DNA from: a bacterium
GTDB lineage: Bacteria > CSSED10-310 > JAJRTK01
Reading direction: 5' to 3'
Length of the DNA: 11,577 bases
NCBI GenBank assembly: GCA_024278345.1
Contig: JAJRTK010000200.1
Location: 1 to 11,577, forward strand
How positions within the stretch are numbered: position 1 is the stretch's first letter; the number at the start of each line of letters is the position of its first letter. Below, one piece after another: positions 1 to 11,577 of the stretch. Below the pieces are notes generated by a model. That model worked only from the letters and a program-made list of their open reading frames with translations, did no database searches and was not told the DNA's origin. A program made the translations under genes and the position numbers.

Positions 1-3000
1 TGATATGGCAAGGGAACCCCGATACGCACCCGAATCTTACGGCCGCGGGGAAGGACCGAGCCCTTGGGCAGAATCCCGTGCGTCCCGTCGATCCAGATGG
101 GCAGTAGATCCATCTTGTGCTCCAGGGCAAGGAGACCCACACCCGCCTTGAAGGGCGCCATCCGCCCCGTCTTGGAGCGCGTCCCCTCGGGAAAAAGGAG
201 CAGGCTGTGGCCCGATTCCAGCGCGTTTCCAGCCTCCCCGAGAGACTTGGCTGCACCGCCCTGGCGCTCCATGGGCACGAGGTTCGTGAGCTGCCTGGCC
301 AGGCCGGCCTTGAAAGGCGTGTCGAAAAAGTAATCCTTCGCCGCCAGCGTCACCATGCCCTCCGCCGCAGAACCCAGCGCATGGAGGACAACCCCCGTAT
401 CGAGGTGGCTCGCGTGGTTCGCCGCGGCAATGAAACGTCCCGACAAGGGGATGTGCGCCCGCCCGCTCACCCGAACGTCCAGCATCCGCCCAAACAGCGC
501 TTCCCGGGCCAGGTCAAGGCTCTTCCGTCCAACAGCCGCCAGAGGCTCCGGCAAGGGCTCAGGTAAAATAGGCTCCTCAGAGGCAAACCCAACCGGCCCC
601 CTAGTATGGCGTTGGGTTGCGTTCCTCTCGGGCTGCTCGCGGCCGCTCCCATCCCTCGACCCTTCCACCGGAAGACCTTCGCGGCCACCGGCATGACCTA
701 GATGATCCGCCAACTCCCGGGGCATGGACCCGGAAAACCCACCGGACCCGGCGCCCGTCACCGGAGAAAGCAGCTCTCCGGCGGCCTGAGCCGCGAATCC
801 AGCCAGAGCGCCCAGGAAGCCGGTTCCGGCCCAGGCTGGAGGCAGTTCTTCCCGAGGCGACCGCCATGAGAAGCGCGACCGGGTCCCCGCGGCGCTGGCC
901 GTGGCCCGCCGTGAAGAAGATGAAGCCCGGGCGGAGCACTGGGGAGTCGGTCTCTCGGTTGCCGCGGCAGCCCGGGGAGTTTCTCCCTCGGTTCCCGCGG
1001 CAGCCCGGGGAGTTTCTCCCCGCTTTCCTCTGGCAGGGCTTGGCATCGACTCAAGGCGAGACGATTCAATGCTCTCTTGCGTCGTACCAGCGCCTGGGTT
1101 ACGGCCCGCGGCCATTGTCTCCACTCCGCTCCGGATCGATCGGCGGTCATCCGGGGACTCCGGTCGCGGCCCTGTGTGCCGCGTCTCGCTGACGCTCGGC
1201 ATCCGGCCCCTGGCAGGGCTTTGCCCCGCACCCACCAGGGAGCTCGCTCCCTGGACCCACATCTTTGTACTTTGGGCGGATTCCCGGTTTTTCCTCCCAC
1301 ACGCTTTCACCAGGTCGCCCACGGTCTCGATTCCGGCGATCTCCTCACCGGACAATCGGAGACCGCAGCTCTCTTCCAGGAGCAGTCCCAGCTCCACGAG
1401 CTGAAGCGAGTCGAGGCCCAAATCCAGGGTCAGAGAGTGGCTCTCTGAAAGCTTGTCCACCGGCCGGCCGCTCAGGGCTGCAAGACTCGTCCAAAGGCCG
1501 GCCGGACCGGGACGCAAGCCCGATTCCACGCTGTCATCCCGATCCTTCTCCGCCTGGAGGATCGCCTTCAAGAGGCGTACGACCTTGGGCCGCTGGATCT
1601 TCCGGGTGGCGGTCCTGGGCAAGGATCCCGCCGTGAACCGGATAGCGCCAAGGCGCTTGTGTGGCGGAAGGCCGGCCGCAATCCTCTGAAACTCTTCCCG
1701 CAACTTGCGGCGGGCCCCATGGCGATCCAGTCCGCGCTTGTCGGCTTCGGCCTCCTCCACCACTGCCAGACAGGCGGGGCGCTCGCCTCCACGGCCATCC
1801 TCCAAGCCCACGACGGAAAGCTCCGTGCAAAGGGAATGCCCGCCGTACAGCTCTTCCAACTGGTCGGGATAAACGTTTTCCCCGTTGGCCGACAAGATCA
1901 CGTCCTTCTTCCGGCCAACGATCCGCAGATGCCCCTTCCTGTCAAGAAAGCCCAGATCTCCCGTGTGAAGCCAGCCGTCTCGGAGCGCCGAGGCGGTCTC
2001 ATCAGGCAGTTTCTCGTAACCGAGCATAACGCCCGGCCCAGAAGCGATCACCTCGCCGATGCCCTGATGATCCGGCTGGTGAATCCGGATCTCCACGCCG
2101 GGAACCGGCCGTCCCACGGCGCCGCCCCTGGGCATTCCGTTGGGCGACTGAACCGCCAGGACCGGCGCGGCCTCGGTGAGTCCGTAGCCCTCCAACAGCC
2201 TCAGCCCCAACCCCTGAAAGGTGCTCAAGACATCTTCTGAAAGGGCGGCGCCACCGCTGATGAGAAGGGGCCTGTGCCCTCCGAAAAACCGGTGGACCGG
2301 CGCCAGAAGAAGCGGGCCCGCGTTGATCCCGAACCGCCGCCAAAGCTCCCGGTTCAGACGGCCCAGAAGGCTCACAATTTTTTCGGCCCGGGGCCCCTTC
2401 TCCGCCGCTACGGCCTCGATCCGCCGCGCCAAGAGCTGCCACAACGCCGGAACGCCCACCATGTGGGTCATCCCCGACGACGAAAAGGCACGGGCCAGCT
2501 CCGACGCATTCAACTCTTCCAGATAGGTGATCTGACCGCCACGGGCCAGGGGCGTCAACAAACCGCAACTGAACTCGAAAGTGTGGTGGAGCGGCAGAAC
2601 ACTGACGAATCTGGGCTCCTTCAGAGGATCGAAGACCTCCAGCAAACCCTTCAACAGGCCCGTAAAATTGCCGTGACTAAGCATGACTCCCTTGGGCCGG
2701 CCCGTCGTGCCCGACGTGTAGATGAGAGAGGCCAGCTCAGTGGAGAGCTTGCCATTCCGGCCCCCAAGCTCCGGCCAATCTTGGTAAGAGTATCTAGAGA
2801 TGGTCATGGGCCGCGGGGCCTGATGGATTGCGCTCCCCTTGGCGGGGACGCCCGCGCTTCGCTCGGCGGGGACGCCCGCGCTTCGCTCGGCGGGGACGCC
2901 CGCGCTTCGCTCGGCGGGGACGCCTTCGCTTCGCTGGGCGGTCGTTTGGGGACTCTGTCCCCCATCCCCTGGCAGGGCTTTGCCCCGCACGCACCAGGGA

Positions 3001-5390
3001 GCTCGCTCATCTTCCCGTTGCAACGAAAGGCAACGGGAGCCCAGCCCACATTTTTGGGCAATGCGCGTTTTTTCTTCCGATACCGCCGCGGCGACGAATT
3101 CAACGATGTCCAGCCTCCAACAGCGGTGCTCTGTCAGCAGCTTCTCCAGCCCATCTGACATTCTTTCCCTACACCGTTCCGAAATGACCAGCAACCTTGC
3201 CCCGCTGGACTCCAGCAGGTTCCCCAATGTCGCCGCTTCCAGGGCCGGATCGACGGGGACCACGGTTGCTCCGGCCCGAACGATCCCGAAGTAGGCCGCC
3301 ACCCAGGCCGGTCGGTTTTCGCTCATGAGAAGCACCCGGTCTCCGCCCACAATCCCCATCCCGCGCAACCGGCCCGCGGCAGATCCAGCCATCCGGCCCA
3401 ACTGCCCATAAGTGATCCGCCGGACGCCATCTTTTCCCAACATTTTCAGGGCCGTCCGATCTCCGTACCGCTCCGTCACCTCGCCGAAAAGCTCGCGGAG
3501 ATCTCGGTAACCGTGGATTCGGCGGCGCTTCTTCTTCAGTTTTTCCTCCAGAAGAGGAAGCGTCCAGCGGTGCAGCCCCGGAACATGGACGTCCACCCAG
3601 TAGCGGCGCCAGTCGATCTTGTCCGGCTCGTAAGCAAGGATCTCCCTCTCCCCCGGCTCAAGACGGCCGCGAAGCTCCAAGATATTCTCAGAGCGGAATT
3701 CATACCGGTTCTCCCAAATATAGGGAAGGAAGGTGTCGATGGCCTTAGAAACGATCCGGCTCTGCTTTTCCAAGGTGCCCGCCGCACTTTTTGCGGTCTC
3801 CAGAAGCGGTTTCAGGGCCGCGGGAGATTGAACCCCCTCCAACAATCCCTTGAGGCCACCGGCAAGCCAACCCACCGTGGGGGCGGACCGGCGGCGGAAG
3901 GTCTGGAGGTCCGTGGGATTCAGCTCCAGAACGTGGTGGCGCACGAAATCAGCAAAAGTCTTCATCCCTGACCGGCGCCGGATCTTCCGGTGGGCCAGAG
4001 ACGTCAGCTCGATGATCCGATCCAGGGCCACGGGATTGCACTCTGACGTGGCAAGCTGGTAAACCCGCCTCGCCGAGCCCTCCAAAAGTGACGCCGCCAC
4101 CATCAAGATCCCGGCGGCCACGTGGTCCACGGGAATAAAGTCGATATTCAGGTGGCGGCCCACCGGCATGTTCTGGAGCCCGCGCCAACAGAGGTAGACC
4201 AAGGGCGCACTGGTGTTGACGCCCTCGTTCCAGCCCACCTGGGGATACCGGACGGCACTCTCCACGATGGCAGGCCGCACGAAAGCCAGCGGGACATCCC
4301 CGAGCCTCCCGGGCAAAATCCGCTCCGTCAACGCCTTGGAATAGGTGTAGGTGTTGGGCCAACCCCACCACCGGGCCCGCTCCTGGCCCACGCGCCGGAG
4401 CTCTCCCTCCACCCAGCGGGACCGGAGCCTCTCCGCCTCCTTGTAGACCAGGTCACGGCGGTCCAAGGGCGCATGCTCCCGTTCCAGATTCCGAAGAGCC
4501 TGTTCCAAGAAGCTCCGCTTCCTTCCCTGCTCCCTGGAAGCCACTTCCACCTCGGAAATCCGGCGGTAGCACTCCGACAGCTCCAGCTCCGCGTCGAACT
4601 CCTCGTCCATCAAGCGATGGAGGAGCCGATCCCGTTGATCGTGGCCCTGGCCCACGACGGTGGTCCGCCGGGCCGGAACCGCTCTCGAGCCGTTTCCGTT
4701 CTTCCCTGCCACCGCCGGGCCGTGAAGGGAGACCTCGCCATTCTCTTCGCGACCACCAGCCCCGTTTCCGTTCTTTCCCCCCAGAACAAGCCTCACCGCC
4801 GGATCGGCCGCGGGAAAGGGGATCTCCAGGCTCTCATCTTCTTCCACCAGGCCGTCTCGCTCCCCCGCCACGTAACAGGTGGAGACGTGGAGCATCCGCA
4901 CGTCGGCGCAGCTCCGGGCCAGCTCCGCAAGGTTCAGGGCCGCCCGAGTATTGGAAGCCAGAGACTGGTCCAAGGGCGGCGTGAAATCGGTATTCCCCGC
5001 GCAGTGGATGATGATGTCCAGCGAGGAGCGGAGGCGCTCCAGCTCCGTGGGCGGCAACCCGAGGTCCGGCGTCGAGAGATCGCTCTCCACGATTCCCACG
5101 CGCCGGGCCATGAACTCCTCGTAAGCGCTCCCCAAAAGCTCTTTGACCGGTCGGAGCACCGGGGATTCCAGGATTTCCCGCTGAAACCTCTCCCGCGCCG
5201 GGCCCTTGCCGCCTCGCCGGATCACGCAGGTGACCCGCCCGACGTCGGGGACATTCTTGAGCAACATGGACAAGACGACCTTCCCGACGAACCCAGTGGT
5301 CCCGGTCATCAAGATCTGCTTGCCTCGCAGTGTGGAAAAGACTGACAGCGGTCGCATGGACGGCTCCCTGTTCTCCAAGGCTTCAGACAT
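1..5390 (-). CDS. ElbD-like multidomain lipid enzyme: fatty acyl reductase, acyl-adenylating, ACP and PlsC domains (3' end outside window)
   Basis: One uninterrupted minus-strand frame runs from ATG 5390 past the left edge (at least 1796 codons; I checked the frame codon by codon). The start has GGAGG nine bases upstream. Residues 1-620 are a fatty acyl-CoA reductase of the extended SDR type: TGTTGFVG (29-36) binds the nucleotide, and WPNTYTYSK supplies the catalytic Y348/K352. Residues 626-1275 are an ANL adenylating domain: YTSGTTGRPKG (891-901), EGYGLTE (1067-1073), TGDLG (1143), GRKKD (1159) and the C-terminal lysine K1264. Residues 1290-1365 are an acyl carrier domain with LGLDSLQL, S1328 being the phosphopantetheine site. 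Residues about 1625-1796 are PlsC: NHASHLD (H1659, D1664) and FPEGT (1733-1737). Likely role: activation, reduction and acyl transfer of a fatty chain, as in ElbD of myxobacterial ether-lipid synthesis (from memory). Oddities: repeat-derived segments at residues about 772-850 and 1365-1480, and a Gly/Asn-rich insert near 200-240. Domain calls are firm; the pathway is inferred. Confidence 0.9.
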   Translation of the reverse strand, partial: MSEALENREPSMRPLSVFSTLRGKQILMTGTTGFVGKVVLSMLLKNVPDVGRVTCVIRRGGKGPARERFQREILESPVLRPVKELLGSAYEEFMARRVGIVESDLSTPDLGLPPTELERLRSSLDIIIHCAGNTDFTPPLDQSLASNTRAALNLAELARSCADVRMLHVSTCYVAGERDGLVEEDESLEIPFPAADPAVRLVLGGKNGNGAGGREENGEVSLHGPAVAGKNGNGSRAVPARRTTVVGQGHDQRDRLLHRLMDEEFDAELELSECYRRISEVEVASREQGRKRSFLEQALRNLEREHAPLDRRDLVYKEAERLRSRWVEGELRRVGQERARWWGWPNTYTYSKALTERILPGRLGDVPLAFVRPAIVESAVRYPQVGWNEGVNTSAPLVYLCWRGLQNMPVGRHLNIDFIPVDHVAAGILMVAASLLEGSARRVYQLATSECNPVALDRIIELTSLAHRKIRRRSGMKTFADFVRHHVLELNPTDLQTFRRRSAPTVGWLAGGLKGLLEGVQSPAALKPLLETAKSAAGTLEKQSRIVSKAIDTFLPYIWENRYEFRSENILELRGRLEPGEREILAYEPDKIDWRRYWVDVHVPGLHRWTLPLLEEKLKKKRRRIHGYRDLRELFGEVTERYGDRTALKMLGKDGVRRITYGQLGRMAGSAAGRLRGMGIVGGDRVLLMSENRPAWVAAYFGIVRAGATVVPVDPALEAATLGNLLESSGARLLVISERCRERMSDGLEKLLTEHRCWRLDIVEFVAAAVSEEKTRIAQKCGLGSRCLSLQREDERAPWCVRGKALPGDGGQSPQTTAQRSEGVPAERSAGVPAERSAGVPAERSAGVPAKGSAIHQAPRPMTISRYSYQDWPELGGRNGKLSTELASLIYTSGTTGRPKGVMLSHGNFTGLLKGLLEVFDPLKEPRFVSVLPLHHTFEFSCGLLTPLARGGQITYLEELNASELARAFSSSGMTHMVGVPALWQLLARRIEAVAAEKGPRAEKIVSLLGRLNRELWRRFGINAGPLLLAPVHRFFGGHRPLLISGGAALSEDVLSTFQGLGLRLLEGYGLTEAAPVLAVQSPNGMPRGGAVGRPVPGVEIRIHQPDHQGIGEVIASGPGVMLGYEKLPDETASALRDGWLHTGDLGFLDRKGHLRIVGRKKDVILSANGENVYPDQLEELYGGHSLCTELSVVGLEDGRGGERPACLAVVEEAEADKRGLDRHGARRKLREEFQRIAAGLPPHKRLGAIRFTAGSLPRTATRKIQRPKVVRLLKAILQAEKDRDDSVESGLRPGPAGLWTSLAALSGRPVDKLSESHSLTLDLGLDSLQLVELGLLLEESCGLRLSGEEIAGIETVGDLVKACGRKNRESAQSTKMWVQGASSLVGAGQSPARGRMPSVSETRHTGPRPESPDDRRSIRSGVETMAAGRNPGAGTTQESIESSRLESMPSPARGKRGETPRAAAGTEGETPRAAAATERPTPQCSARASSSSRRATASAAGTRSRFSWRSPREELPPAWAGTGFLGALAGFAAQAAGELLSPVTGAGSGGFSGSMPRELADHLGHAGGREGLPVEGSRDGSGREQPERNATQRHTRGPVGFASEEPILPEPLPEPLAAVGRKSLDLAREALFGRMLDVRVSGRAHIPLSGRFIAAANHASHLDTGVVLHALGSAAEGMVTLAAKDYFFDTPFKAGLARQLTNLVPMERQGGAAKSLGEAGNALESGHSLLLFPEGTRSKTGRMAPFKAGVGLLALEHKMDLLPIWIDGTHGILPKGSVLPRGRKIRVRIGVPLPY
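954..1019 (+). repeat. 33-bp tandem duplication beside repeat copy A
   Basis: Two 33-bp units (954-986 and 987-1019) differ at a single base. They contain GCAGCCCGGGGAGTTTCTCC. The unit is a multiple of three, so each copy adds 11 residues (GETPRAAA-type) to the linker between the ACP and PlsC domains. Confidence 0.85.
1042..1298 (+). repeat. Dispersed repeat copy A, inside the lipid-enzyme gene between the ACP and PlsC domains
   Basis: Positions 1141-1243 match 9059-9160 with about ten differences in 103 bases, read by eye. The core carries CTGGCAGGGCTTT and a hairpin at 1235-1254 (9-bp stem CCAGGGAGC/GCTCCCTGG), then a T-rich tail ending near 1298. The stretch at 1042-1065 resembles the terminal inverted repeat of copy D (about 18 of 24), at a similar distance from the core, so this copy may keep a decayed left end. 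It lacks a recognisable right end. It encodes residues about 1365-1450 of the interrupted protein without a stop. Confidence 0.75.
2841..2936 (+). repeat. 24-bp tandem repeat, four units, abutting repeat copy B
   Basis: Units start at 2841, 2865, 2889 and 2913. The first three are identical and the fourth differs at three bases. The unit is GGCGGGGACGCC followed by CGCGCTTCGCTC. On the coding strand it reads as an eight-residue period GVPAERSA. Because the unit is a multiple of three, copy-number change keeps the enzyme in frame. Confidence 0.95.
2937..3078 (+). repeat. Dispersed repeat copy B, inside the adenylating-domain coding region
   Basis: It shares with copies A and D the opening GGCGGTCGT, the core CTGGCAGGGCTTTGCCCCGCA, the CACCAGGGAGC block, a second hairpin at 3014-3037 (8-bp stem CCCGTTGC/GCAACGGG) and the T-rich tail GCGTTTTTTCTTCC. 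About 45 bases of the core found in A and D are missing. In the gene frame it lies between KLLTEHRC (residues 750-757) and YTSGTTG (891), where acyl-CoA synthetases normally have only a short linker. Confidence 0.8.
4690..4778 (-). repeat. Short Gly/Asn-coding repeat pair inside the reductase domain
   Basis: The plus-strand motif CCGTTTCCGTTCTT occurs at 4690 and again at 4762. Read in the gene frame, both copies give GKNGNG. They flank a low-complexity stretch (residues about 203-236) in a variable helical part of the reductase, between the nucleotide-binding motif and the YxxxK site. It looks like a flexible surface insert. Confidence 0.5.
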
Positions 5391-5618
5391 GGGACACTAC
5401 CTCCGGCAAATGGATGAGACCAGGCAAGAACCTTGCCCCCGATGGGAGCGGCTGCGAGCAGCGGGGGCGGAACACAGCGCAAAGAAAAGCCCCGGGAAAA
5501 ACCAAACCAATCGGTTCCAGGCAGGCCCATGGCGGCGCGATGGCCGACAATGAGCCAGCCATGAGAAGCTTTCCGCGGCGAGTTCCACGGGATTCGGCGA
5601 ATCGATACAGTTTCCTGC

Positions 5619-8400: not shown

Positions 8401-8962
8401 TGAACACTCACTCAGGAATCAAGCGCCTTCAGCGGACTTCCATTCACCCCCACCCGCGAACAGCATTTCCCGAACCGACCCGCGGTGCGTAATCTAGGTC
8501 GCACTGGAGATCAAACCTGGTAGATGCCCGGGAATCCGCCAAAATGCTTCATCCTCCACCAGGCGCGAAACCCTCGCCGATCCTCGACCGTTGACCAAAA
8601 CCTCTCCAGAACGCTTCTTGCTGAGTTCCGCATCGCGCCAGGTGCAGGCCTGCACCCGTCGCTCGCCAATTTCCCCCCAAAAACCATCGGACAGCCCACC
8701 ATGCCCAAGACGACCCCAAAATCCCCAACCGCCGCCCCTCTTCCGGGAAAACCGGGGAGCCCCTTCCTCTCCCCCCGGACTTCGGCCAAGAGAGACCTTG
8801 AGGGCAGCAAGACCGGTTGGAGGGCGATGATTGGGAAGGGGCGGCGGACGCGGGGAACTCGCGCCGTAGGCGCGGGTCGGTGCCGACCCGACCGGACCCC
8901 AACCAGAAGAAAAGAAGACAGTTTTCGGGAGTCGCGGCTTGAAGGCGGCCCACGACTCAGAC
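8401..8962. other. Gene-poor divergent region
   Basis: Open frames cross this stretch on both strands because of GC bias, but none has recognisable motifs, a convincing ribosome binding site or protein-like composition (runs of Pro, Arg, Gly and Ser). It should hold the promoters of the divergent operon and the channel gene. Hairpins at 8861-8873 (GCGCC/GGCGC) and 8873-8890 (CGGGTCG/CGACCCG, loop GTGC) are the only structures I see. Confidence 0.6.
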
Positions 8963-8963
8963 T

Positions 8964-9268
8964 GGGGTATCCACGCAAAGCGGGACAATGGGTCGGCGGG
9001 AAGAAACTCGGCCTCGGACAACACCGCGATCCGCTCGGTGGGTCACGTTTGCGTGACCCGGCGGTCGTCCGGGGACTCTGGCCGCGGCCCCGGGGGCCGC
9101 GTCTCGCTCCGCTCGGCATCCGGCCCCTGGCAGGGCTTTGGCCTGCACCCACCAGGGAGCGTGCAAGGACCCGTTGCAATGAAAAGCAACGAGTTCCCCA
9201 CCCACGTTTTTGTACGCTACGCGTTTTCCTTTTTTTTTCTGTTCTGTCCCGCCTTGCGTGGATACCCC
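8964..9268 (+). mobile_element. MITE-like element (dispersed repeat copy D with inverted terminal repeats)
   Basis: A 25-bp arm at 8964-8988 (starts GGGGTATCCACGC) is the reverse complement of 9244-9268 with two mismatches. The sequence TCAGAC occurs just outside both ends (8957-8962, one base from the arm, and 9269-9274), like a 6-bp target duplication. Inside lie a perfect hairpin at 9040-9059 (GGGTCACG/CGTGACCC, loop TTTG), the core shared with copy A (9059-9160), a CGTTGC/GCAACG hairpin at 9172-9191 and a T-rich tail. It has no transposase, so it would be non-autonomous. It ends 14 bases before the channel start codon. Confidence 0.6.
9040..9059 (+). other. Perfect 8-bp stem-loop in the MITE-like element
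   Basis: GGGTCACG, loop TTTG, CGTGACCC. It sits at the left edge of the conserved core. No U-run follows it, so it is not a classical terminator. Confidence 0.7.
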
Positions 9269-9282
9269 TCAGACCGCGGGGC

Positions 9283-11406
9283 ATGGCTCTTTTTCTGAGC
9301 CTGGCACTCCTGCTCTGGTTGCCCTTTCCCGCCAGCGCTGACGAGCCCACCACGCCTCCGCCAACGGGTCCCACAATCAACACCGGACTGGGCTCGGCGC
9401 CCACGGAGATCGACCGCACAACTCCTCGGCGAAGCTGGCGGGGATTCATCGAGGCCGCCGCCAAGAAAGACCTCCTGCTGGCCGCCCATTTCCTGGATCT
9501 CCGGGAAGTCGATCCCGCCCAGCAGCCCCTGGTAGGCCCCGACCGCGCGGGCGAGATCTACCGCCTCATCCGGGGCCTTGGCCCACCCCGGATCCGCTCC
9601 ATCCCCGACGAAACCGATCCGCCACTGCCCGCCAAGGAAGAGCCGGGAACCTGGATCCTCAAGGCTTTCGAGCACGGCGCATCGGGCGTCCACGGGAAGA
9701 TCATGCTCCAGCGGCAGATCTTGCCCGAAACCAACCAACCTGTCTGGCTCATCAGCTCCGAAACCGTCTCCGCCGTGACGGCCTGGTACAGTAGAATTGT
9801 GGAGGGCCAGAAGCTCAAGAAGCCCACTCACACCCTGAATGCCGGGTTGGAGCATCCCACCTCGGGACTTGATCGGAGCACCCCTGCACGGAGCCTGCGG
9901 AACTATGTCGATGCCTGCCGCGCCGGCGATTTTGCCCTGGCCGCTCACTCCCTCCGCCTCGATCACCTTCCCGTCCAGCGGCAAGCCGAGCTGGGCCCGC
10001 GCCTGGCGCGAAAGCTCAAGCTGGTCCTGGACCAGAAGCTCTGGATCGACTTCGATCTGGTGAGCGATCAGCCCCACGGAAAACCGGAAGCGGCGGAGAT
10101 CCCCCATGACGAAGACGAAATCGGCACCATCCGCCTCCGGAACAAGGAGATCCCCATCCGGATGGTCCGCGTCCCGCTGGGCGGCGAGGAGGCGGCATGG
10201 GTTTTCTCCAAGGGCACGGTCGTACGGATCAGCGATCTTTACAGGGAATTCGGCCTTGACTGGTGGGGGGACTACATCCCCGACAGCCTCTTCGGCCACC
10301 GCTTCCTGGAGCTGGATCTCTGGCAATGGATGGGCCTGGCGGTAAGCCTGATCATCGCCCTCATCCTTGCCACGGCGGCCCAGTGGCTCGGCCTCTACAT
10401 CCTGGATGTTTTGGCCACTCGAGCCAAGATCTCCCTCCTGGCCCATTTTGTGGACCGCGCCACGGGGCCGGTCCGAGCTCTTTTCTTCCTGGTCCTCCTT
10501 CGGATCTTCCTGGGCCAGCTCCGGCCGGCCCAACCGGTAGAACCGATCCTTGGCCAGATCTTTTTCCCCCTCTTCGTTCTCACCATCGCCTGGCTGGTCA
10601 TGCGGCTGGTAGCCGCCAGCACCCACGCGTTGGACGAGGCCCTTGGCCAGAGCCAGGAAGGAGCCAGTTACCGGGCATCTTCCACCCGGATCCTGCTCCT
10701 TCGCCGTGTGCTCAACTTCCTGGTGACCCTCTGCGCCACGGCGCTTGTGCTCATGCAGTTCGAGATCGTCCGCAACGTGGGCACCGGCCTGCTGGCCTCG
10801 GCCGGAATCGCCGGGCTGGTCCTGGGCCTGGCGGCGCAAAAGACCATCGGAAACATCTTTGCCGGCATCCAGCTCGGCCTCACGCAACCCCTGAAACTGG
10901 GAGATTTCATCAAGATCGACGGCACCACCGGCACCGTCGAGGAGATCTCACTCTCCCACGTCATCATCCGGGTCTGGGACAAGCGGCGGTTCGTGGTCCC
11001 CATCCCGACGCTCCTGAGCAAGCCCATCGAAAACTGGACCCGGGTAAGCCCGGATCTACTGGGTACCGTCTACCTGGTGGCCGACTACCGAGTCGATGTG
11101 GAAGCGGCCCGCCGCCGGGCAGTGGAGATCGTCGAGGCGTCGCCCCTCTGGGATCGGGCAGCCTCTCCATCCCTCATCGTCACCGACCTCAAAGAAGGCT
11201 CCGTGCAGCTCCGGGTGCTCACGAGCGCCAAGGATGCCGGCGACCTCTGGAGCCTCCGCTGTCAAGTCCGGGAGCAGATGCTCCTCTGGCTCCAGGAACA
11301 TGACTTCACCCCAAAACATCCCGTGATGGTACAGGAAGCTGGAGGCGATCCGGAGCAATTTGCGCCAAACCGAGAAACAGGTTGTGACACGCATTCAGGA
11401 CAATAA
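9283..11406 (+). CDS. MscS-family mechanosensitive channel with duplicated periplasmic domain
   Basis: 707 residues. ATG 9283 begins a signal peptide, MALFLSLALLLWLPFPASA, with likely cleavage after residue 19. The frame is open further upstream to 8524, but that part is repeat and gene-poor DNA. No clear ribosome binding site precedes the ATG. Residues 34-185 and 186-330 are two related periplasmic modules: each begins with a DR(T/S)TP(R/A)RS motif, then a short helix and L(L/A)AAH. Hydrophobic helices lie at about 347-375, 396-413, 421-446 and 472-495. Next comes the MscS pore helix (about 498-530; GLLASAGIAGLVLGLAAQ, then TIGNIFAGIQ), GDFIKIDG (540-547) of the beta domain, and the cytoplasmic alpha/beta domain to the end. 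The channel should open under membrane tension and release solutes on osmotic downshock. It is transcribed away from the lipid operon. Confidence 0.9.
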   Translation: MALFLSLALLLWLPFPASADEPTTPPPTGPTINTGLGSAPTEIDRTTPRRSWRGFIEAAAKKDLLLAAHFLDLREVDPAQQPLVGPDRAGEIYRLIRGLGPPRIRSIPDETDPPLPAKEEPGTWILKAFEHGASGVHGKIMLQRQILPETNQPVWLISSETVSAVTAWYSRIVEGQKLKKPTHTLNAGLEHPTSGLDRSTPARSLRNYVDACRAGDFALAAHSLRLDHLPVQRQAELGPRLARKLKLVLDQKLWIDFDLVSDQPHGKPEAAEIPHDEDEIGTIRLRNKEIPIRMVRVPLGGEEAAWVFSKGTVVRISDLYREFGLDWWGDYIPDSLFGHRFLELDLWQWMGLAVSLIIALILATAAQWLGLYILDVLATRAKISLLAHFVDRATGPVRALFFLVLLRIFLGQLRPAQPVEPILGQIFFPLFVLTIAWLVMRLVAASTHALDEALGQSQEGASYRASSTRILLLRRVLNFLVTLCATALVLMQFEIVRNVGTGLLASAGIAGLVLGLAAQKTIGNIFAGIQLGLTQPLKLGDFIKIDGTTGTVEEISLSHVIIRVWDKRRFVVPIPTLLSKPIENWTRVSPDLLGTVYLVADYRVDVEAARRRAVEIVEASPLWDRAASPSLIVTDLKEGSVQLRVLTSAKDAGDLWSLRCQVREQMLLWLQEHDFTPKHPVMVQEAGGDPEQFAPNRETGCDTHSGQ

Positions 11407-11577
11407 ACGCTGTCCGGGGGCGAAGAAAGGGGGTATCCACGTACCATGAAAGTACATGGTTCAATCCATCTTCGACGGCGTGGTCATGGCGCTCCGCGCC
11501 TTCCACTTTCATCTTCCGGGGTGTGGTCGCCGGGATCATGCTCGTTAAGGCGGGACAAAACGAGAAACAAAGAGACA
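11407..11577. other. Intergenic end of window with a split copy of the inverted-repeat motif
   Basis: I see no confident gene or terminator here. A 12-base match to the left part of the element arm lies at 11430-11441 (GGGGTATCCACG) and a 12-base match to its right part at 11547-11558 (AAGGCGGGACAA), 105 bases apart. A small hairpin, ACCATG/CATGGT, lies at 11443-11460. Confidence 0.45.

Follow-up and report, generated by a model that had tools for sequence, protein, structure and literature searches.

How can the gene of a multidomain enzyme carry pieces of a dispersed repeat in its reading frame and still stay open? The question is raised by a window of 11,577 bp, the whole of contig C124 in a bacterial genome of 6.06 Mb (550 contigs, 88% complete). 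A sequence-only reading of this window had proposed that two copies of one palindromic repeat, here named A and B, are carried in frame inside a catalytic megaenzyme. We examined this proposal with profile searches, comparison with relatives, structure prediction and a census of repeat copies in the source genome.

Two repeat copies within a megaenzyme gene

The host gene occupies positions 3–5390 on the minus strand, runs off the contig and encodes at least 1796 amino acids without a stop. Its product combines an NAD-dependent reductase (NAD_binding_4), an AMP-binding ligase, an ACP (PP-binding) and a PlsC-type acyltransferase (Acyltransferase), and the same domain order is found in orthologues (L156 and L237–L240). 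From 31 complete copies located outside the window in the same genome we built a profile, and it detected both A and B on the plus strand within this frame. Both copies thus lie in frame inside the enzyme, as had been proposed.

Copy A (1042–1292; E = 2.3e-25) is a decayed full-length element in the linker between the ACP and PlsC domains. Its core lies at 1207–1243, its left terminal repeat can still be recognized at 1041–1063 with 6 mismatches in 23 positions, and it shares 92–93% identity with other copies over 103 nt. Copy B gives a profile match at 2900–3076 (E = 3.1e-42) with its core at 2966–3002, and is 83–91% identical to about 30 copies; the whole insert, which includes in-frame 24-bp tandem units at 2830–2925, spans approximately 2788–3085. 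These outer limits rest on protein alignment because the terminal repeats of B are no longer recognizable. Candidate decayed repeats at its ends (2788 and 3085) showed 13 and 14 mismatches in 23 positions, the background level, and were rejected. The target duplications of both copies have been lost. The two copies described earlier were confirmed, but copy A does not begin as early as 954, since 941–1006 is a separate 33-bp tandem repeat in the linker beside it. At 612–665 the same linker also holds a copy of another short dispersed repeat (GTTGCGTTCCTCTCGGGCTGCTCGCGGCCGCTCCCATC-like), which recurs inverted at 5441–5482. This repeat occurs at no fewer than 36 other places in the genome and is translated both here and in a helicase-like protein on contig C278.

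Segment B is missing from seven relatives, comprising the orthologues above and shorter relatives, and the loop in which it sits counts 45 residues in the window once the insert is removed, compared with 46 in the close relative L156. Similarly, the ACP–PlsC linker has about 245 residues in the window versus roughly 15–40 in relatives, where copy A is absent. These alignments show that copies A and B were inserted into the enzyme. Copy B interrupts the Pfam AMP-binding match (residues 638–1125) at a loop that is hypervariable among relatives. An AlphaFold model of the ligase domain, computed with 24 relatives, showed an ANL-type fold with a mean pLDDT of 81, and its best PDB matches were MatB and other acyl-CoA ligases. 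The single long stretch with pLDDT below 50 (model residues 177–270) falls largely inside insert B, most of which is below this value; a helix precedes this stretch, and the strand that runs into the ATP-binding loop follows it. The model thus predicts copy B to be one disordered loop within an otherwise confident ligase fold.

A mobile element of the MITE type

The 37-bp core was found 216 times in the genome at up to 3 mismatches, and its reversed control pattern was not found. A 23-bp terminal inverted repeat, GGGTATCCACGCAAGGCGGGACA, occurred at 413 sites at up to 3 mismatches (control, 0), and the first 100 stretches fetched gave 54 pairs of it; unpaired terminal repeats, listed by eye, were also present in the fetched stretches. 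Direct target duplications, 8–9 bp by the present scoring, flank 33 complete copies. The true duplication is probably 8 bp, because 8 bp plus a chance ninth base would approximately account for the observed frequency of perfect 9-bp matches. Complete copies measure 168–355 bp (n = 33) and have a hairpin-rich body, built as a chain of small hairpins, with no transposase gene. Terminal repeats, target duplications, short length and high copy number together identify the repeat as a MITE, a non-autonomous DNA transposon, which goes beyond the earlier description.

The window itself contains one complete element, copy C (8965–9267, plus strand; E = 4e-66). Its 23-bp terminal repeats carry 1 and 0 mismatches, its target duplications read CTCAGACTG (8956–8964) and CTCAGACCG (9268–9276, one mismatch), and its predicted DNA fold is stronger than that of dinucleotide shuffles (z = −5.3). 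A mechanosensitive channel gene follows, its probable ATG (9293) lying 25 bp downstream of copy C. The channel open reading frame (8524–11406, plus strand) stays open through copy C, and automatic annotation would therefore give a false N-terminal extension; the true start is more likely the signal-peptide-like MALFLSLALLLWLPFPASA at 9293. Another G+C-rich dispersed repeat, of the GGGGCGGCGGAC...GGTCGGCGGC type, lies beside copy C at about 8830–8905, and likewise at locus L164. In many copies a nested repeat is joined to the terminal repeat (window positions 11523–11557; loci L104, L106, L112, L134, L157 and L186). It reads KYMVKSIFDGVVMALGAIHFHLPGCGRRDHAR followed by a stop in one frame, and suggests that one repeat family inserted into the ends of another.

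No match to the core was found in 59 comparison genomes, only seven of which belong to the same phylum. An Rfam scan of the repeat gave no family match, copy C had no match in plasmid and phage collections, and the terminal repeat was absent from viral contigs. An exact scan of genome contigs with the core, own-genome records left out, showed no other organism among the matches listed. Within the scope searched, namely the 59 genomes, the plasmids, phages and viral contigs, and the genome-contig matches listed, the MITE family is new.

These data bear on whether A and B could be ordinary lineage-specific protein sequence, that is, low-complexity linker or loop residues that owe nothing to a mobile element. 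Both segments do lie where unrelated length variation is common, one in a linker and the other in a hypervariable loop. The same DNA, however, recurs at all the core sites counted above, most of them outside genes, and is read in several frames, and complete copies bear terminal repeats and target duplications. The sequence-only reading had named alignable sequence in relatives, or a core confined to this gene, as signs of ordinary protein; neither was seen, and we regard this explanation as having a negligible chance of being right.

We searched the 88% complete genome for the mobilizing enzyme with the Y1_Tnp, IS1595, ISL3 and IS256 families and found no transposase flanked by these terminal repeats. 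IS1595 and ISL3 matches were present without such repeats, and the IS256 family was absent. A different hairpin element splits one ISL3-family transposase gene (L319, C5:9–767); the ends of this element resemble GGTCATAGTACCGGCCAC / GTGGCCCGTACCATGACC, and it has internal modules in common with the MITE and introduces a stop. The only Y1/RAYT match was a 241-aa RAYT-like open reading frame (L196; C390, positions 1012–1737), with a cluster of repeat modules some 0.6 kb away. This proximity would suit a REP/RAYT system, in which palindromes are mobilized by a Y1 tyrosine transposase. Such an origin is highly improbable here, given that the single match falls below the Pfam cut-off and that the elements carry long terminal inverted repeats and target duplications. 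To our knowledge, RAYT-driven REPs have neither. The mobilizing transposase presumably is, or was, of the DDE type.

Insertions in other genes

The census of intragenic copies covered 140 stretches (781 kb) picked for holding repeat copies, and empty sites were recovered by a script that took out each complete copy together with one duplication. Outside the window, seven of the complete copies with target duplications are intragenic. Although these numbers are small, the added bases (length plus duplication) are divisible by three in 7/7 intragenic copies, compared with 9/25 of the others (Fisher p = 0.003); the host frame is stop-free in six of the seven. The copy on C26 interrupts a membrane/TPR protein, with duplication ACACAGGC and an added length of 169 + 8 = 177 bp. 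That on C512 has TGGAATGC on both sides and adds 244 + 8 = 252 bp, or 84 codons, ahead of the TPR repeats of a kinase–AAA–TPR protein. Others lie in a DsbD_2 family membrane protein (C183), in a methyltransferase (C205), where the element separates one cysteine pair of a putative N-terminal zinc ribbon from the other, and in the helicase-like protein of at least 1832 aa on C278; the copy on C250 is stop-free, and the one on C402 (L153) carries a stop in the host frame. Degenerate in-frame copies were seen in ApbE, in an exosortase open reading frame and in a spermine-synthase-like membrane protein (identified by inspection, with no Pfam match). A further degenerate copy, at C14 (L174), breaks the frame of a DUF2887 gene. 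The genes holding the stop-bearing C402 and the frame-breaking C14 insertions seem dispensable (DUF2887; the C402 gene resembles DUF2887 by eye), and the C402 gene appears to be frameshifted already.

Insertions within genes are strongly depleted. Using a home-made gene model (frame accuracy, 92% on 150-bp windows) and counting a site as genic only when both flanks were coding in one stop-free frame, we found 5/32 copy sites to be coding versus 70.6% of random sites (p = 2e-10). The intragenic total is 5–7 of 32 copies, the upper figure adding C183 and C205, which were counted as genic from protein reading, outside the strict two-sided test.

Many copies sit at contig ends, and the repeat therefore does break this assembly. 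One might accordingly ask whether contigs were mis-joined at the repeat in a metagenome assembly of 550 pieces. We hold this to be very unlikely: the megaenzyme parts flanking A and B are collinear and in frame with a single orthologue, and seven independent sites show matching 8–9 bp duplications, exact joins and the host gene on both sides. A different possibility is that the insert is skipped during expression, by RNA splicing, by protein splicing as an intein, or by ribosome bypassing between the 8-bp duplicates, which could serve as matched take-off and landing sequences for elements that form strong hairpins. Skipping would make frame and stops irrelevant, yet the frame is kept at every intragenic site and all but one of them are free of stops. 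No Rfam intron match was found, and the insert is not an intein, because its peptide differs in every frame. Skipping is thus scarcely credible.

We instead favor MITE insertion followed by purifying selection that keeps stop-free, in-frame copies in tolerant loops, to which we give a probability of about 0.9. A transposase acting in trans would insert the element at many sites with an 8-bp target duplication, and insertions that shift the frame of a needed gene or bring in a stop would be lost through purifying selection. Those that persist would have a length plus duplication divisible by three, a stop-free host frame and a tolerant loop or linker as their site; they would be translated as approximately 55–100 extra disordered residues and later decay, as A and B have done. 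Under this scheme the full-length proteins are presumably made and active, and selection probably did the filtering.

Openness of the element and known in-frame MITEs

The megaenzyme reads A as SSLVGAGQSPARGR and B as APWCVRGKALPGDG, in different frames relative to the repeat and both stop-free, as the sequence-only reading had stated. Across the genome at least five frame and orientation combinations are in use for the core, three frames antisense and two sense. No peptide is therefore conserved, in agreement with the earlier view that the peptide is not what is maintained. Complete elements have 2.48 stop-free frames out of 6, compared with 0.96 in dinucleotide shuffles and 0.85 in host noncoding DNA of similar G+C, a comparison that involves related copies and hence carries no significance test. 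Because 41% of frames are stop-free and one length in three is suitable, chance alone would make about 14% of genic insertions tolerable. Random insertion with subsequent loss of all others explains the in-frame survivors without a special mechanism. If anything, genic survivors seem fewer than this expectation relative to intergenic copies, which would fit further loss outside tolerant loops.

The excess openness may stem from repetition of the hairpin modules or from selection acting on the element. In the latter case the element itself would be selected for readability, as a 'stealth' transposon with no stops in two to three of its six frames, in intergenic copies too; its genic insertions would be survivable in several frames without encoding a particular peptide. 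We consider this rather doubtful. Of the two alternatives raised earlier, a repeat that is stop-free in many frames gains support from the openness values, and survival only in surface loops from the few, in-frame genic survivors and from the hypervariable, modeled-as-disordered loop at B.

Transposons kept as translated sequence inside conserved enzymes are known from few cases, mostly in host-restricted or pathogenic bacteria. Accommodation of a translated MITE is a rare but previously known kind of event: in-frame cases appear in reports on RPE, ERIC, the Correia 107-bp element and QMITE (PMC10969869, PMC2229807, PMC2759123, PMC5896051). In the present genome the selective filter of frame, stops and loop position is measurable, because the duplications let the empty site be rebuilt exactly. 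With young and decayed insertions in one genome, one can directly test how MITEs contribute to the lengthening of protein loops.

The closest likeness is to the Rickettsia palindromic elements (RPEs; Ogata 2000, 2002), which are described as inserted in frame in conserved protein genes, where they are expected to be tolerated as extra surface residues (PMC10969869, PMC2229807). Both are short palindromic mobile repeats that sit in frame within genes of conserved proteins, and the in-frame genic insertions support the parallel drawn earlier with an unrelated GC-rich lineage, here an uncultured one. By description the two are set apart, and they are not known to be related in sequence. RPEs are given as 105–146 bp (~150 bp) long; their terminal repeat has 12 bp, their target duplication is not established and their peptide is conserved (PMC10969869, PMC2229807). 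The present element has about 170–360 bp, a 23-bp repeat, an 8-bp duplication and at least five readings of its core, so that no conserved peptide is shared and, by this criterion, it is not an RPE. We class it as a new MITE family working like RPEs.

ERIC/RU-1, YPAL/RU-2 and the Correia 107-bp element are MITEs whose open frames are joined in frame to host open reading frames, and RU-1 is used in two frames (PMC2229807, PMC2759123). The enterobacterial fusions are reported from C-terminal regions, with none within conserved domains (PMC2759123), whereas copy B lies inside a Pfam AMP-binding match. In Coxiella burnetii, QMITE1 and QMITE2 are MITEs of about 50 copies that overlap open reading frames; QMITE2 has 7–11 nt duplications and a few in-frame insertions, and the in-frame QMITE cases concern hypothetical proteins or gene ends (PMC5896051). 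Target duplications and in-frame insertions are also features of the present MITE. MITECca01 of Cardinium (~240 bp, 169 copies), whose parental element belongs to the IS982 family, is mostly intergenic and shows a lineage-specific expansion (PMC9769881). The present MITE is likewise short, high-copy, mostly intergenic and lineage-specific; in-frame retention of MITECca01 was not found in that report. Compared with the known in-frame MITEs, the family described here is distinguished by demonstrated target duplications, five readings of its core and the interruption of a catalytic domain.
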